Assembly: GCF_000758685.1 (NCBI RefSeq)
Contig: NZ_CP009286.1
Span: forward strand, 3,626,501-3,690,500
Direction: 5' to 3'
Source: Paenibacillus stellifer
Lineage (GTDB): Bacteria; Bacillota; Bacilli; Paenibacillales; Paenibacillaceae
DNA: 64,000 nt
A program made the translations under genes and the position numbers. The notes under the pieces are model-generated. The model made no database searches, was not told where the DNA came from, and worked only from the letters and a program-made list of their open reading frames with translations. Of the stretch, positions 1 through 55,862 are shown piece by piece (positions within the stretch are counted from its first letter, which is position 1; the number at the start of each line of letters is the position of its first letter).

Positions 1-717
1 GGCTTGCTCGACGTTGCTGATAAACTGCTCTTTCGACAGATTGGAGTGGATGTCGCCGAGATCGATGTCCTGCGGGATGCTGTGCCGGTTCATATTCTCC
101 CTCGGTCCATCCTTGTGAAGCTCATCGGCCAGCGCTTCCAGATTGTCGTTCAGCTTGGCATAATTCGCACGGATGTCATCGTCGCTGTCGCCGTCCTTGA
201 TATGAAGGTTGCCAACCAGCAGTATTTGCTGTTTCACATGATCGAACACGATGATCCGGTCGCAGAACATGAAGCGGATGTCGTCCATCTTCAGATCGTC
301 GCTGGCATGCGCCGGCAGCTTCTCATAATATTGCAGCAGATCGTAACCGAAGAATCCGATCGCCCCACCTGTGAACGGCGGCATATCCTGAAGCTTCGGG
401 CTCCGATAAGAGCGGAGCAGCGTCTTGAGCTCTTCGATCGGCTTGCCTTTCAACTGCTTCTTCTCTCCGCCGATTTCGATGTTGATAACCCCTTTTTTAC
501 CGGATATCAGCAGAAACGGATCGCTTCCGATGAATGAGTAGCGTGCCCACTGGATTCCCCCCTCCACGCTTTCCAGCAGAAAGGCGTTGCGGCGGTTGGC
601 GAAGCGCTGAAAGATCCGGATCGGCGTCTCCATATCGGCCAGCACTCGCTTGACCACGGGAATCAGATTGTACTGCCTGGCGAGGGACACCACTTGCTCT
701 ACGCTGGGACTGGTCAT
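1..717 (-). CDS. trpE: Anthranilate synthase component I, N-terminal part (runs off the window)
   Basis: This is the first 239 codons of TrpE, the chorismate-using subunit that with TrpG makes anthranilate for tryptophan synthesis. The N-terminal domain is recognisable, including the tryptophan-pocket stretch LLESVEGG and the GGAIGFFGYD segment. The ATG at 717 has the Shine-Dalgarno sequence GGAGG ten bases upstream. The gene follows a leader with a TRAP-type binding site and an intrinsic terminator, so transcription should be attenuated by tryptophan. It lies downstream of aroH on the same strand. The C-terminal catalytic half is outside the window. Confidence 0.95.
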   Translation of the reverse strand, partial: MTSPSVEQVVSLARQYNLIPVVKRVLADMETPIRIFQRFANRRNAFLLESVEGGIQWARYSFIGSDPFLLISGKKGVINIEIGGEKKQLKGKPIEELKTLLRSYRSPKLQDMPPFTGGAIGFFGYDLLQYYEKLPAHASDDLKMDDIRFMFCDRIIVFDHVKQQILLVGNLHIKDGDSDDDIRANYAKLNDNLEALADELHKDGPRENMNRHSIPQDIDLGDIHSNLSKEQFISNVEQA

Positions 718-765: not shown

Positions 766-790
766 AAAAACCTCTACCGAAGTAGAGGTT
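766..790 (-). terminator. Attenuator terminator in the trpE leader
   Basis: A perfect 9-bp stem (AACCTCTAC with GTAGAGGTT) closes on a TTCG tetraloop and runs into five T residues on the minus strand. It sits about 50 bases before the trpE start, where an attenuator terminator is expected. Its 5' arm can alternatively pair with part of the TRAP site (see the regulatory entry at 946-998). Confidence 0.9.
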
Positions 791-926
791 TAGTTAGGCA
801 AGCGTATAAAAGAGCGGGGATGATGGCATATACTCGAAAAATACGCGCAAAAGGATTAAGCAGCATCCTCCGCGCCCTGCGAACCTGTGTCCACATTCTA
901 AGCGCGGAGATCCCCTCACGGATCAT
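774..926 (-). CDS. Possible 50-codon leader peptide in the trp attenuator region
   Basis: An ATG at 926 opens a 50-codon frame that ends in a TAG inside the 3' arm of the attenuator hairpin. It starts 19 bases after the last TRAP triplet. The product would be basic and hydrophobic, with a single Trp, so it is not a classic Trp-codon-rich leader. Only a weak GGGA lies upstream of the start. A strong stem (868-875 with 902-909) falls inside the frame. It may be a chance frame, but a ribosome reaching its stop would sit on the terminator. Confidence 0.25.
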   Translation of the reverse strand: MIREGISALRMWTQVRRARRMLLNPFARIFRVYAIIPALLYACLTKPLLR

Positions 927-945
927 CCGTTCCAATTCCCAAATA

Positions 946-998
946 CTCGTCTCTTCTCAGCTCATCTAAACTGTTCTAAACTCTGCTTCACTCGTCTG
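946..998 (-). promoter_or_regulatory. TRAP binding site: eleven NAG triplets at 5-nt period in the trp leader
   Basis: On the minus strand, triplets start at 998, 993, 988, 983, 978, 973, 968, 963, 958, 953 and 948. They read CAG, GAG, AAG, GAG, TAG, CAG, TAG, GAG, GAG, GAG, GAG, each separated by exactly two bases. TRAP is known as an 11-subunit ring that binds about eleven (G/U/A)AG repeats with 2-3 nt spacers. Bases 989-976 are complementary, apart from one mismatch and one bulge, to 793-779, the 5' arm and flank of the leader terminator. The site therefore overlaps a long-range antiterminator, and bound TRAP would favour termination. The protein gene, mtrB, is at 11314-11562. Confidence 0.9.
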
Positions 999-1003
999 AT
1001 ATC

Positions 1004-1033
1004 ACTATACATGATAGCTATGCTCTTTTACAA
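1004..1033 (-). promoter_or_regulatory. Sigma-A-type promoter of the trp leader
   Basis: TTGTAA at 1033-1028 and TATAGT at 1009-1004 are separated by 18 bp on the minus strand. Transcription should start near 997, so the TRAP triplets begin at, or a base or two before, the transcript 5' end. A short GTTCCG/CGGAAC hairpin without a T run lies between the aroH stop and this promoter and is at best a weak terminator. Confidence 0.7.
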
Positions 1034-1080: not shown

Positions 1081-1452
1081 TTATTTGCTTTCCGTCAAGT
1101 CGGGACGAAGACGCTGCGCCTCGTTCAAATAGACGTGGCGGATCTCCTTCTGGCTCTTCTCGGTATTGACCTGGACCATCAGCCGGATGCATTTCGGCAG
1201 GCTGCCTTTGACCGGAATTTCAATGGCGCACATCAAGGGAACAAGCTCCCAGCCCTCGATCTCCCGAATCGCCTTGGCCGGAAAAGCCGCATCCAGATCT
1301 GTCGTCATTGTGATCCATACGCTGCAGATGTCTTCGGCAACCAGGTCGTTGCGTTCCACCATTTCTCGCAGCAGCAGTACGGTCTCGCGAAGAATTTCCT
1401 CTCCATCGTTGCGGGTGACTGTCGTCGCGCCGCGGATGCCCCGGTTCACCAT
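1081..1452 (-). CDS. aroH: Chorismate mutase, AroH class
   Basis: This 123-residue protein matches the monofunctional AroH-type chorismate mutase, which converts chorismate to prephenate for Phe and Tyr synthesis. The N-terminal RGATTV motif and the Arg in the CIRLMVQVN segment are typical of the trimeric AroH fold, and the length is normal. Its start overlaps the end of aroB by 7 nt, so the two are translationally coupled. It is the last gene of the aroC-aroB-aroH unit, just ahead of the trp promoter. Confidence 0.93.
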   Translation of the reverse strand: MVNRGIRGATTVTRNDGEEILRETVLLLREMVERNDLVAEDICSVWITMTTDLDAAFPAKAIREIEGWELVPLMCAIEIPVKGSLPKCIRLMVQVNTEKSQKEIRHVYLNEAQRLRPDLTESK

Positions 1453-11313: not shown

Positions 11314-11562
11314 TCAGATCCCGCTCTCGATTTGGCCGTGCTTCGTCATAATCTCGGCTCTGCCGCGGATCTTCATTGCCGAGGTGTGATCGGTAAACTG
11401 GGCGATATATACTTCGCCTTTGTCCAGCTTCTCCGTGTGATGAAATCGGGTGTCCAGCCCTCGTGTAAGCCCCATAACCTGAACGCCATTCTCCTTCGCC
11501 TTGATAACGATATAATCACTGTCCGACGGATCGGGCAGTCCCTCATTTCTGCTTTCGCTCAT
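11314..11562 (-). CDS. mtrB: Tryptophan RNA-binding attenuation protein TRAP
   Basis: The 82-residue protein aligns along its length with B. subtilis MtrB. TRAP forms an 11-subunit ring that binds tryptophan, then wraps NAG-repeat RNA to force termination of trp transcripts. The GLTRG.DTRFHH tryptophan-binding loop is conserved. So are Lys45, Lys64 and Arg66, which match the known RNA-contacting KKR motif (Lys37, Lys56, Arg58 in B. subtilis). I chose the ATG at 11562, nine bases after AGGAGG; the longer frame runs back into the hup terminator. Unlike B. subtilis there is no folE (mtrA) in front of it. Its evident target is the leader at 946-998. Confidence 0.95.
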
Positions 11563-11601
11563 CCCTGTACCCTCCTTATGGAAAAACCTGCATGATCGCA
11601 A

Positions 11602-11634
11602 TGTAAAAACAAATGCCGCCTGAGAGGGCGGCAT
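11602..11634 (-). terminator. Intrinsic terminator of hup
   Basis: An 8-bp stem, ATGCCGCC with GGCGGCAT, closes on a 6-base loop and is followed by TTGTTTTT on the minus strand. It lies 40 bases past the HU stop and 40 bases before the mtrB start. mtrB has no strong promoter of its own that I can see, so partial read-through from hup may drive it. Confidence 0.88.
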
Positions 11635-30705: not shown

Positions 30706-30985
30706 AATTAATCAAGCAAATGCGATGATGGAACAAAGATACTGAAGGTCTTCAGAGAGCCGGCGGGTGGTGCAAGCCGGTGGCGGACAGCTGTCTTTAG
30801 CGCTCCTGAGATATTGTGTCGAAACTAACAGTAGGCACAATCGGGTCACTCCGTTACCAGTGTTCCTGTCTTGATCGGCAGGATAATGAGGCTGCATCTG
30901 TAATGGATGCGGTGAATTAGGGTGGTACCACGACAACTCTCGTCCCTTACTGTGGAAGCAGTATGCGGTCGGGAGTTTTTTGCTG
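30706..30985 (+). ncRNA. T-box riboswitch upstream of serA, probable Ser specifier
   Basis: The conserved T-box core AGGGTGGTACCACG is at 30919-30932. Stem I is recognisable from its distal AGAGAGCCGG...GCAAGCCGG part and the CTCCTGAG motif on its 3' side. The likely specifier codon just before that motif is AGC (30799-30801), a serine codon, which fits serine synthesis. A terminator (AACTCTCG with CGGGAGTT, then TTTT) lies at 30935-30982 and competes with the antiterminator containing the core. Uncharged tRNA-Ser should turn on serA. Confidence 0.92.
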
Positions 30986-31178: not shown

Positions 31179-32771
31179 ATGTTCAAAATTTTGGTATCGG
31201 ACCCGATCAGCGATCTCGGGATTCAGCAGCTGACGGACGCAAGCGATGTAACGGTTGACAAGAAGACAGGACTCAGCGAGGATGAGCTCGTCGCCATTAT
31301 CGGCGAATATGATGGCCTCCTTGTTCGTTCCCAGACTACCGTCACTCCCAAAATCATCGAAGCCGGAGCCAAGTTGAAGGTCATCGGCCGTGCAGGCGTG
31401 GGCGTTGACAATATTAATCTTGAAGCTGCAACCAAGCGCGGTATCGTTGTTATCAATGCCCCGGACGGCAACACCATTACTACGTGTGAACATGCTTTCG
31501 CCATGATGATGGCTCTTGCCCGCCATATCCCGCAAGCGTATGCCAAGACCATTACAGGCGTATGGGACAAGAAATCGTACCTCGGCGTTGAGCTTCGCAA
31601 CAAAACTCTCGGCGTTCTCGGAATGGGCCGAATCGGAAGCGAAGTTGCCAAACGCGCCAAAGCGTTCGGCATGAATATTCTGGCCTACGATCCATTCCTG
31701 ACCGAAGATCGTGCAGAAAAGCTTGAAGTGAAAATCGCTACAGTGGATGACATTGTAAGAAACGCCGACTTTATTACGGTGCATACGCCGCTGACTCCGC
31801 AGACGAAGCATATGATCTCCCGTCCGCAGTTCGAGGTCATGAAGAAGGGTATGCGCATCGTGAACTGTGCACGCGGTGGAGTCATCGACGAAATGGCTCT
31901 GGTGGAAGCCCTTGATGCCGGCATCGTGGCAGGCGCAGCATTCGACGTATTCGAGAAGGAGCCGCCGCAAGCTGACCATCCGTTCCTGTCCAATCCGAAA
32001 ATTATCGTGACTCCGCACCTTGGTGCTTCGACGGTGGAAGCCCAGGAGAACGTGGCGATCGACGTATCCGAGCAGGTGCTCCATATCCTGCGGAGCGAAC
32101 CGTTTATCAACGCGGTCAACATTCCTCCGGTTGCTCCTAGCGTTATGAACAAGCTTCAGCCGTACTTCACGCTCGGCGAGAAGCTGGGCAGCTTCGCCGC
32201 TCAAATTACACACGGAGCCATTAAGGAGATCGTTGTGGAATTCGCAGGCGATCTGGCTGATGTCGATACCCAGCCTCTTAACCGGTACATCGTAAAGGGC
32301 GTACTCTCCCGTCATTTCGGAGGAGACGTGAACATCATCAACTCCATGCACCTGGCCAAGACAAGCGAAGTTAACGTCGTGGTCACCAAGGCTTCCAAGA
32401 CGAAGGGCTTCACCAACCTGATCTCCGTGAAGCTGATCGCCGACGGCGGCGAAGAGCGTGTCGTTGCAGGAACGCTGCTTCAGGGCTATGGCGAGCGCAT
32501 TGTTCAGCTCGGCAAGTTCCCGGTAGATATCTCGCCAGAAGGACATCAAATTCTGATTTCCCATAATGACAAACCGGGCATCATCGGTAATGTCGGCACC
32601 CTGCTCGGCCAGAGCGATGTGAACATCGCCTCCATGCAGGTCGGACGTATCGTTGTCGGTGGGGAAGCTATCATGCTGCTGACTGTAGACAAAGAAGTGC
32701 CGGCTGAGGTGCTTGTGAAGCTCGCCGCTCTTGCGGAAATTAACACCGCGACCGAAGTGGTGCTGGTTTAA
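31179..32771 (+). CDS. serA: D-3-phosphoglycerate dehydrogenase
   Basis: SerA oxidises 3-phosphoglycerate in the first step of serine synthesis. The 530-residue protein has the NAD-binding domain with GMGRIGSEVAKRA, the catalytic Arg, Glu and His of the D-2-hydroxyacid dehydrogenase family (NCARGGVIDE, TPHLGAST), an allosteric substrate-binding domain and a C-terminal ACT domain from about residue 457. The ATG follows AAGGAGG. Control is by the T-box upstream, with serine feedback possible through the ACT domain. Confidence 0.97.
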   Translation: MFKILVSDPISDLGIQQLTDASDVTVDKKTGLSEDELVAIIGEYDGLLVRSQTTVTPKIIEAGAKLKVIGRAGVGVDNINLEAATKRGIVVINAPDGNTITTCEHAFAMMMALARHIPQAYAKTITGVWDKKSYLGVELRNKTLGVLGMGRIGSEVAKRAKAFGMNILAYDPFLTEDRAEKLEVKIATVDDIVRNADFITVHTPLTPQTKHMISRPQFEVMKKGMRIVNCARGGVIDEMALVEALDAGIVAGAAFDVFEKEPPQADHPFLSNPKIIVTPHLGASTVEAQENVAIDVSEQVLHILRSEPFINAVNIPPVAPSVMNKLQPYFTLGEKLGSFAAQITHGAIKEIVVEFAGDLADVDTQPLNRYIVKGVLSRHFGGDVNIINSMHLAKTSEVNVVVTKASKTKGFTNLISVKLIADGGEERVVAGTLLQGYGERIVQLGKFPVDISPEGHQILISHNDKPGIIGNVGTLLGQSDVNIASMQVGRIVVGGEAIMLLTVDKEVPAEVLVKLAALAEINTATEVVLV

Positions 32772-55563: not shown

Positions 55564-55699
55564 ATGTGAGAGTATCATGAAATTCCAAGCCGGATGCCAG
55601 ACGTCTATCGGGCTGGGGGTCTTTGTGATTTATCGCACAATTGATGAGCGGACATGACACAGCAGACCTCCTGCTCGAATGGCAGGCAATCGGCTAAAC

Positions 55700-55862
55700 T
55701 CTCCTTCTTCCATCCAGACTATACTGTCGGTCCCGGAATTGCACCAGGTCCACCGTCCGCATTGATTGCGGTCCGGGTAGCGGACTGAGAAACTAGCTAC
55801 GCTGATGCGTCATCTGTTTCATCACCGCCGGTAGGGAATTTCACCCTGCCCTGAAGGATTAT
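55700..55862 (-). ncRNA. FMN riboswitch (RFN element)
   Basis: The minus strand carries the conserved RFN blocks: CAGGGCAGGGTGAAATTCC, ACCGGCGGTGAT, the GGACCGACAGTATAGTC-like block and GGATGGAAGAAGGAG at the end. FMN binding should favour the terminator at 55522-55563 and shut off riboflavin synthesis. A promoter (TTGTGT and TAATAT, 17 bp apart) lies upstream at 55926-55954. Confidence 0.96.

Follow-up and report, generated by a model that had tools for sequence, protein, structure and literature searches.

The trpE leader of Paenibacillus stellifer raises the question of how a TRAP attenuator could work when the binding site of the protein and the terminator are far apart. In the trp leader of Bacillus subtilis, the TRAP site and the terminator are close together, and a 5' stem-loop stands ahead of the triplet array; in P. 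stellifer, by contrast with this general background, 154 nt separate the array from the terminator. The P. stellifer leader has in common with the B. subtilis trpEDCFBA leader, as described in parts of PMC3913778, a NAG array of the kind read by TRAP, an antiterminator set against a terminator before trpE, and the mtrB gene, and the same parts count a 5' stem-loop in the B. subtilis leader. The trp leader of Bacillus halodurans is likewise controlled by TRAP and has 19 triplets and a 12-subunit ring (parts of PMC3184956), compared with 11 triplets in P. stellifer. We found no paper on the trp leader of Paenibacillus among the matches listed in a search of the open-licence literature, which is a weak negative. 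The mtrB gene is named among the IAA genes of P. polymyxa in a part of PMC7773762 that does not mention attenuation.

In this study, the window is the whole 64-kb stretch of P. stellifer DNA that was analysed. Read along the minus strand, it carries aroC-like and aroB-like genes (recognised by eye), aroH, the leader, and trpE (Table 1). The mtrB gene, which encodes TRAP, lies in the same region approximately 10 kb upstream of the leader. The PF02081 domain covers residues 38-104 of the mtrB frame, and the true start is probably internal to this frame. Alignment with solved TRAP proteins showed that the RNA-contact residues Phe32, Glu36, Lys37, Asp39, Lys56, and Arg58 are kept (the contact list is from a part of PMC3184956, and the positions were assigned by hand). 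All 100 genomes examined from the genus, and all 118 of the family sample, carried the gene. In contrast to the B. subtilis system, anti-TRAP had no match in the P. stellifer genome. Position 15 of MtrB is Lys and position 72 is Ser in the alignment (numbered by hand). A ring size of 11 for this TRAP is not settled, because a possible 12-mer has been predicted for Paenibacillus TRAP from Lys15 together with Thr72 (PMC3184956, in part), and the protein here has Lys15 but Ser72. The longest triplet run was exactly 12 in 19 of 120 family leaders and longer in 5, and it is 11 in the window. Leader L104 (genus g6) has 17 uninterrupted triplets at a spacing of 5-6 before trpE, which is more than a single TRAP ring could occupy.

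Table 1. Features of the P. stellifer trp region, with positions in the window
Feature	Position	Strand	Basis
trpE, N-terminal part (anthranilate synthase component I)	1..717	-	PF04715
trpE start codon ATG	717-715	-	sequence
Shine-Dalgarno-like AAGGAGG ahead of trpE	732-726	-	sequence
Intrinsic terminator hairpin AAACCTCTAC-TTCG-GTAGAGGTTT, then TTCT	768..791	-	fold; terminators before trpE in relatives
Predicted antiterminator 3' strand, including the terminator 5' arm and first loop bases	780..816	-	fold
Insert between array and terminator-proximal strand	817..945	-	fold
Strong hairpin inside the insert (866-911 in the original prediction)	868..909	-	fold
Predicted TRAP-type binding site, 11 NAG triplets, exact 5-nt period	946..998	-	sequence; relatives
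Predicted extended antiterminator 5' strand, within triplets 6-11	948..969	-	18 pairs with 794-816, fold
Predicted antiterminator 5' strand facing the terminator arm, triplets 3-5	976..988	-	12 pairs with 780-793, fold
Predicted sigma-70-like promoter, TTGTAA (starts 1033), 18 nt, TATAGT (ends 1004)	1004..1033	-	consensus match only
aroH (chorismate mutase, CM_1), gene upstream of the trpE leader	1081..1452	-	PF07736
mtrB, encodes TRAP	11314..11634	-	PF02081, E 1.8e-40; solved TRAP homologues

The array reads CAG, GAG, AAG, GAG, TAG, CAG, TAG, GAG, GAG, GAG, GAG from its first triplet (998-996) to its last (948-946), and every spacer is 2 nt. This agrees with a TRAP-regulated trp leader, for which some 11 or 12 NAG repeats with spacers of 2-3 nt are expected ahead of trpE. 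The next-longest run of triplets at the exact period in the window has 4. A pattern of five consecutive triplets gave 17 matches in the P. stellifer genome, 7 of which were windows of the trpE-leader array itself, and the reversed pattern gave 25; runs of five triplets are therefore chance-like. Beyond this array, a search for other TRAP targets in the genome found just runs of five or six triplets. At L004:1501-1522, five NAG triplets overlap the start of an uncharacterised frame of the P. stellifer genome, which may be chance.

The promoter prediction matches the consensus at 9 of 12 positions, with 1 found compared with 0.3 expected in shuffles. The array begins 5 nt past the predicted -10 box, which would place the transcript start close to the first triplet. 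The original prediction had described eleven NAG triplets of exact period that begin at the predicted transcript start, and both points held. A TATANT sequence was found no more than 12 nt from the array in 84 of 120 family leaders. With the array at the start predicted from the promoter, there would be no room in P. stellifer for a 5' stem-loop of the B. subtilis type. Some other leaders have sequence ahead of the array: in L079, extra sequence separates it from a promoter-like TATAGT, and in L050, L068, L069, and L082 it is preceded by a stretch resembling an inverted repeat (by eye). Judged from sequence, these may perhaps be like the B. subtilis 5' stem-loop.

The terminator hairpin has a predicted energy of -12.3 kcal/mol, and its TTCG loop, its place before trpE, and its distance of about 150 bases from the array agree with the original prediction. 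It was absent from the output of one terminator scanner, probably because its rule demands 5 T among the 8 bases that follow the full stem, and only 4 are present here. T-box leaders are amino-acid-responsive switches between terminator and antiterminator, which makes them resemble a TRAP leader; the P. stellifer trpE leader had no Rfam T-box match. The only T-box match of the window is at 30716-30950 on the plus strand (RF00230, 106 bits); a serA-like frame at 31179-32771 (recognised by eye) follows 228 nt downstream. It is perhaps a serine T-box, because of this frame downstream. An FMN riboswitch is at 55698-55862 on the minus strand (RF00050, 105 bits).

The leader was folded up to the terminator loop to predict the antiterminator. 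The original prediction paired 989-976 with 793-779 in 14 pairs with one mismatch and one bulge. In our fold, 988-986 pair with 780-782, and 984-976 with 784-793; the mismatch and the bulge were recovered, and the pairs number 12 instead of 14. The predicted antiterminator is also larger than had been claimed, because 18 further pairs join 969-948 to 794-816. It totals 30 pairs with the array, so that most of the array is engaged with terminator-proximal RNA and its 5' triplets face the terminator arm, unlike in B. subtilis. An antiterminator that shares bases with both the array and the terminator was thus found in the predicted fold, and the fit tests described below point to it as well.

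In prefix folding, the arm was paired with the array at a probability of 0.79 until the 3' arm of the terminator was made. At equilibrium, the finished terminator had a probability of 0.96 with the array free and 0.95 with the array blocked. Antitermination would have to be kinetic, because the finished terminator wins at equilibrium even with a free array. Blocking the array added 6.2 kcal/mol of bias towards the terminator (from 5.9 to 12.1).

A scan of genome contigs gave at least 80 trpE loci, 79 of Paenibacillus and 1 of Bacillus sp., and triplet arrays were found ahead of them. Together with 40 more leaders fetched from 18 other genera of the family, which we infer to be Paenibacillaceae, 80 loci and the P. 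stellifer window made 121 leaders, among which 3 pairs were taken as duplicates. The terminator was placed by script in 120 of 121; L097, in which the script found no terminator and the eye finds a comparable hairpin whose T run is broken, was dropped from the counts. The arm motif (A/G)(C/T)CTCTAC fitted 76 of the 80 loci and placed no terminator in L021, L024, L026, and L079, where the later script did; the terminator position of L130 was reset by hand from a motif. The arm types of the 120 leaders were CTCTAC (94), CTCC(T/C)GC (15), CTCTG (4), CATGCG (3), and others (4), and an uninterrupted run of at least 6 triplets was present in 110. At 80% array likeness, 56 of the 120 leaders were non-redundant; they represent 17 labelled genera (g1 via P. 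stellifer) and probably all 19 via close kin. In leaders L111-L113 of genus g8, the insert is very long, exceeding 400 nt in L111 and L113, and the arm is the unusual AGCCTTCATGCG. The letters AAGCC(T/C) after their array repeat the start of the arm, possibly as another switch layout.

Pairing between arm and array was then compared in the 56 leaders, which share ancestry, so that the p values are optimistic. The ensemble pairing of the arm with the array was 10.13 bases in native leaders and 6.96 with a shuffled 3' part, and it was higher in 51 of 56 (Wilcoxon 6.6e-9). When the array letters were shuffled with every AG kept, it fell to 8.42 (native higher in 45 of 56, 1.0e-6). A similar pattern held for the 45-nt stretch that precedes the arm, with 20.09 bases compared with 17.94 for shuffled 3' parts (37 of 56, 0.0097) and 14.91 for shuffled array letters (50 of 56, 1.7e-8). 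In 48 of the 56 leaders, chosen by hand, the own 3' part was compared with foreign ones after removal of row and column effects. The own part was better for the arm in 42 (8.4e-9) and for the upstream part in 33 (0.003), and the gains in P. stellifer were +5.0 and +3.4 bases, respectively. These three ensemble tests indicate that the pairing exceeds the mere meeting of a purine-rich array and a pyrimidine-rich arm. Blocking the array favoured the terminator by a family median of 5.7 kcal/mol, and by more than 1 in 52 of 56 leaders.

Other tests of the pairing were negative or weak. Of the 56 leaders, 5 (L014, L016, L017, L020, and L111) did not exceed their shuffled 3' parts in arm-array pairing, and 11 did not exceed shuffled array letters. 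In a clade of 23 leaders, RNAalifold did not predict the long-range helix, and 78.6% of cells were paired compared with 79.3% in shuffles, with 34-52% in slid control helices; the helix there was often invariant or broken and not covarying. The type of arm showed no significant association with k-mers of the array (p 0.15, 0.22, and 0.76). An early swap test that left out the arm gave a weak result overall and no effect for the pair of leaders of the window (z -0.02). When the arm and the array were swapped as isolated strands, p was 0.0105, and the type-by-type means mostly track the stickiness of the arm. Uninterrupted complementarity was uninformative, with 6-bp matches common in shuffles. 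Thus, of the covariation and conservation looked for in relatives, compensating changes within the 23-sequence clade did not exceed shuffles, and a clear leader-specific fit was obtained across leaders. This fit across the family, together with mtrB nearby, bears out the proposal of array-terminator pairing in a TRAP-type leader.

The distance between array and terminator also sets the family apart. From 102 mtrB-bearing genomes outside the family, 46 were picked, and 34 had a TrpE match; the best 20 of these 34 gave leaders L131-L150. An AG-dense array was present ahead of trpE in 20 of 20 and a terminator in 19 of 20 (positions entered by hand), and the genomes concerned also encode mtrB. 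Between the AG-dense array and the terminator arm lie 8-76 nt in these 19 TRAP-type leaders, which represent other families of the class, and 73-417 nt in the 56 family leaders, the shortest gaps being three of 73-80 nt. In P. stellifer, the array does not adjoin the terminator. In 17 close-set leaders (L132 and L137 were omitted, and the hairpin of L133 scored poorly, -2.4), blocking the array favoured the terminator by 3.3 kcal/mol, compared with the family median given above; the equilibrium bias towards the finished terminator was common to the close-set leaders too. The part of the array with which the arm pairs is shifted towards the 5' end in the family (mean centroid 18 nt, n = 55) relative to the close-set leaders (41 nt, n = 17; p 2.2e-5). 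Stronger terminators in the family were considered and rejected: the T-tract score was 5.15 vs 4.90 (p 0.09), and the median hairpin energies of -13.8 and -12.5 kcal/mol are not a clear difference.

We believe that the leader is likely a tryptophan-responsive TRAP attenuator with a long-range antiterminator that would be blocked by TRAP bound at the 5' end. It is unlikely, but to be weighed most seriously among the alternatives, that TRAP binds the array and controls the operon otherwise, by early action on polymerase, pausing, or mRNA stability, and that the match of array and arm is a by-product of purines and pyrimidines. B. subtilis TRAP can terminate transcription without the attenuator hairpin (PMC3913778, in part), and the simple k-mer and within-clade tests reported here were negative. 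However, a leader-specific fit survives composition-keeping shuffles and swaps between leaders, and direct action may need a closeness that is absent from the 56 family leaders, bar the three shortest gaps.

The insert offers another reading, in which it encodes a leader peptide or acts as a regulatory RNA in its own right, and the terminator responds to insert and TRAP alike. We consider this improbable. The 104-nt core of the P. stellifer insert is more folded than shuffles (z -2.2), and inserts across the family show a tendency in this direction (mean z -1.57; z below -2 in 17 of the 53 inserts scored, short ones among the 56 leaders being left out). The P. stellifer insert also holds an open frame of 53 codons from TTG, with its stop inside the terminator and one Trp codon. 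Against this reading, the start of the frame was shared only with P. sinensis among 76 relatives (two best frames each), no Rfam family reached the gathering threshold in the P. stellifer leader or in 20 chosen relatives, and the length of the insert varies widely across the family; a leader peptide and a known RNA were both rejected as candidates. Among 23 aligned relatives, a set that does not include the P. stellifer leader, the insert shows poor conservation. The strong hairpin, predicted as stems 909-900/868-877 and 895-889/878-884, had been proposed to bring the distant halves of the switch together. It is present in the fold and kept in that of the closest relative, P. sinensis (L009), with few stem letters changed. 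The other leaders whose folds were examined have different inserts, so that the hairpin is not a general device. That TRAP mainly represses trpE translation through a structure hiding the ribosome-binding site, with termination minor, is very improbable, because, although the B. subtilis leader does have such a structure (PMC3913778, in part), the ribosome-binding site here is beyond the terminator, approximately 215 nt from the array.

By analogy with the known TRAP family, the attenuator with a long-range antiterminator may work as follows. RNA polymerase would start at the array. When tryptophan is scarce, TRAP would be off, and the array would stay free while the insert of approximately 130 nt is transcribed. 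The free array could then zip onto RNA within the 5' arm of the terminator and immediately before it, and this helix would delay the terminator, so that trpE is transcribed. When tryptophan is plentiful, TRAP would wrap the array as it emerges and block the long-range helix; the terminator would then fold, and transcription would stop. In contrast to the close-set leaders, TRAP would be far from polymerase at termination and would act only by withholding the antiterminator strand. The binding of TRAP, the response to tryptophan, the kinetics, and the direction of control are all taken from this analogy.

We also speculated, with more doubt than confidence, that the leader is a zipper with a built-in delay. 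TRAP would never contact the terminating polymerase, and the insert of 73-417 nt would be a timer that lets TRAP wrap the array before the partner of the zipper exists, in place of the 5' stem-loop and pausing of B. subtilis. That the insert acts as a timer is conjectural.

Whether TRAP causes termination by unmasking the terminator or by a more direct action is debated (PMC3913778, in part). TRAP sites up to approximately 400 nt before the terminator would separate the two models, and this layout disfavours an effect that depends on closeness. The more direct role that has been argued for TRAP in B. subtilis (PMC3913778, in part) is less likely here because TRAP would bind far from the terminator, and for this reason the leaders of the family would be a clean test of the mechanism of termination by TRAP. 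The family suggests that the site of a ring protein and its terminator can drift apart and yet stay matched by base pairing, and that the 2-nt spacers, which TRAP hardly reads, may carry a second code.
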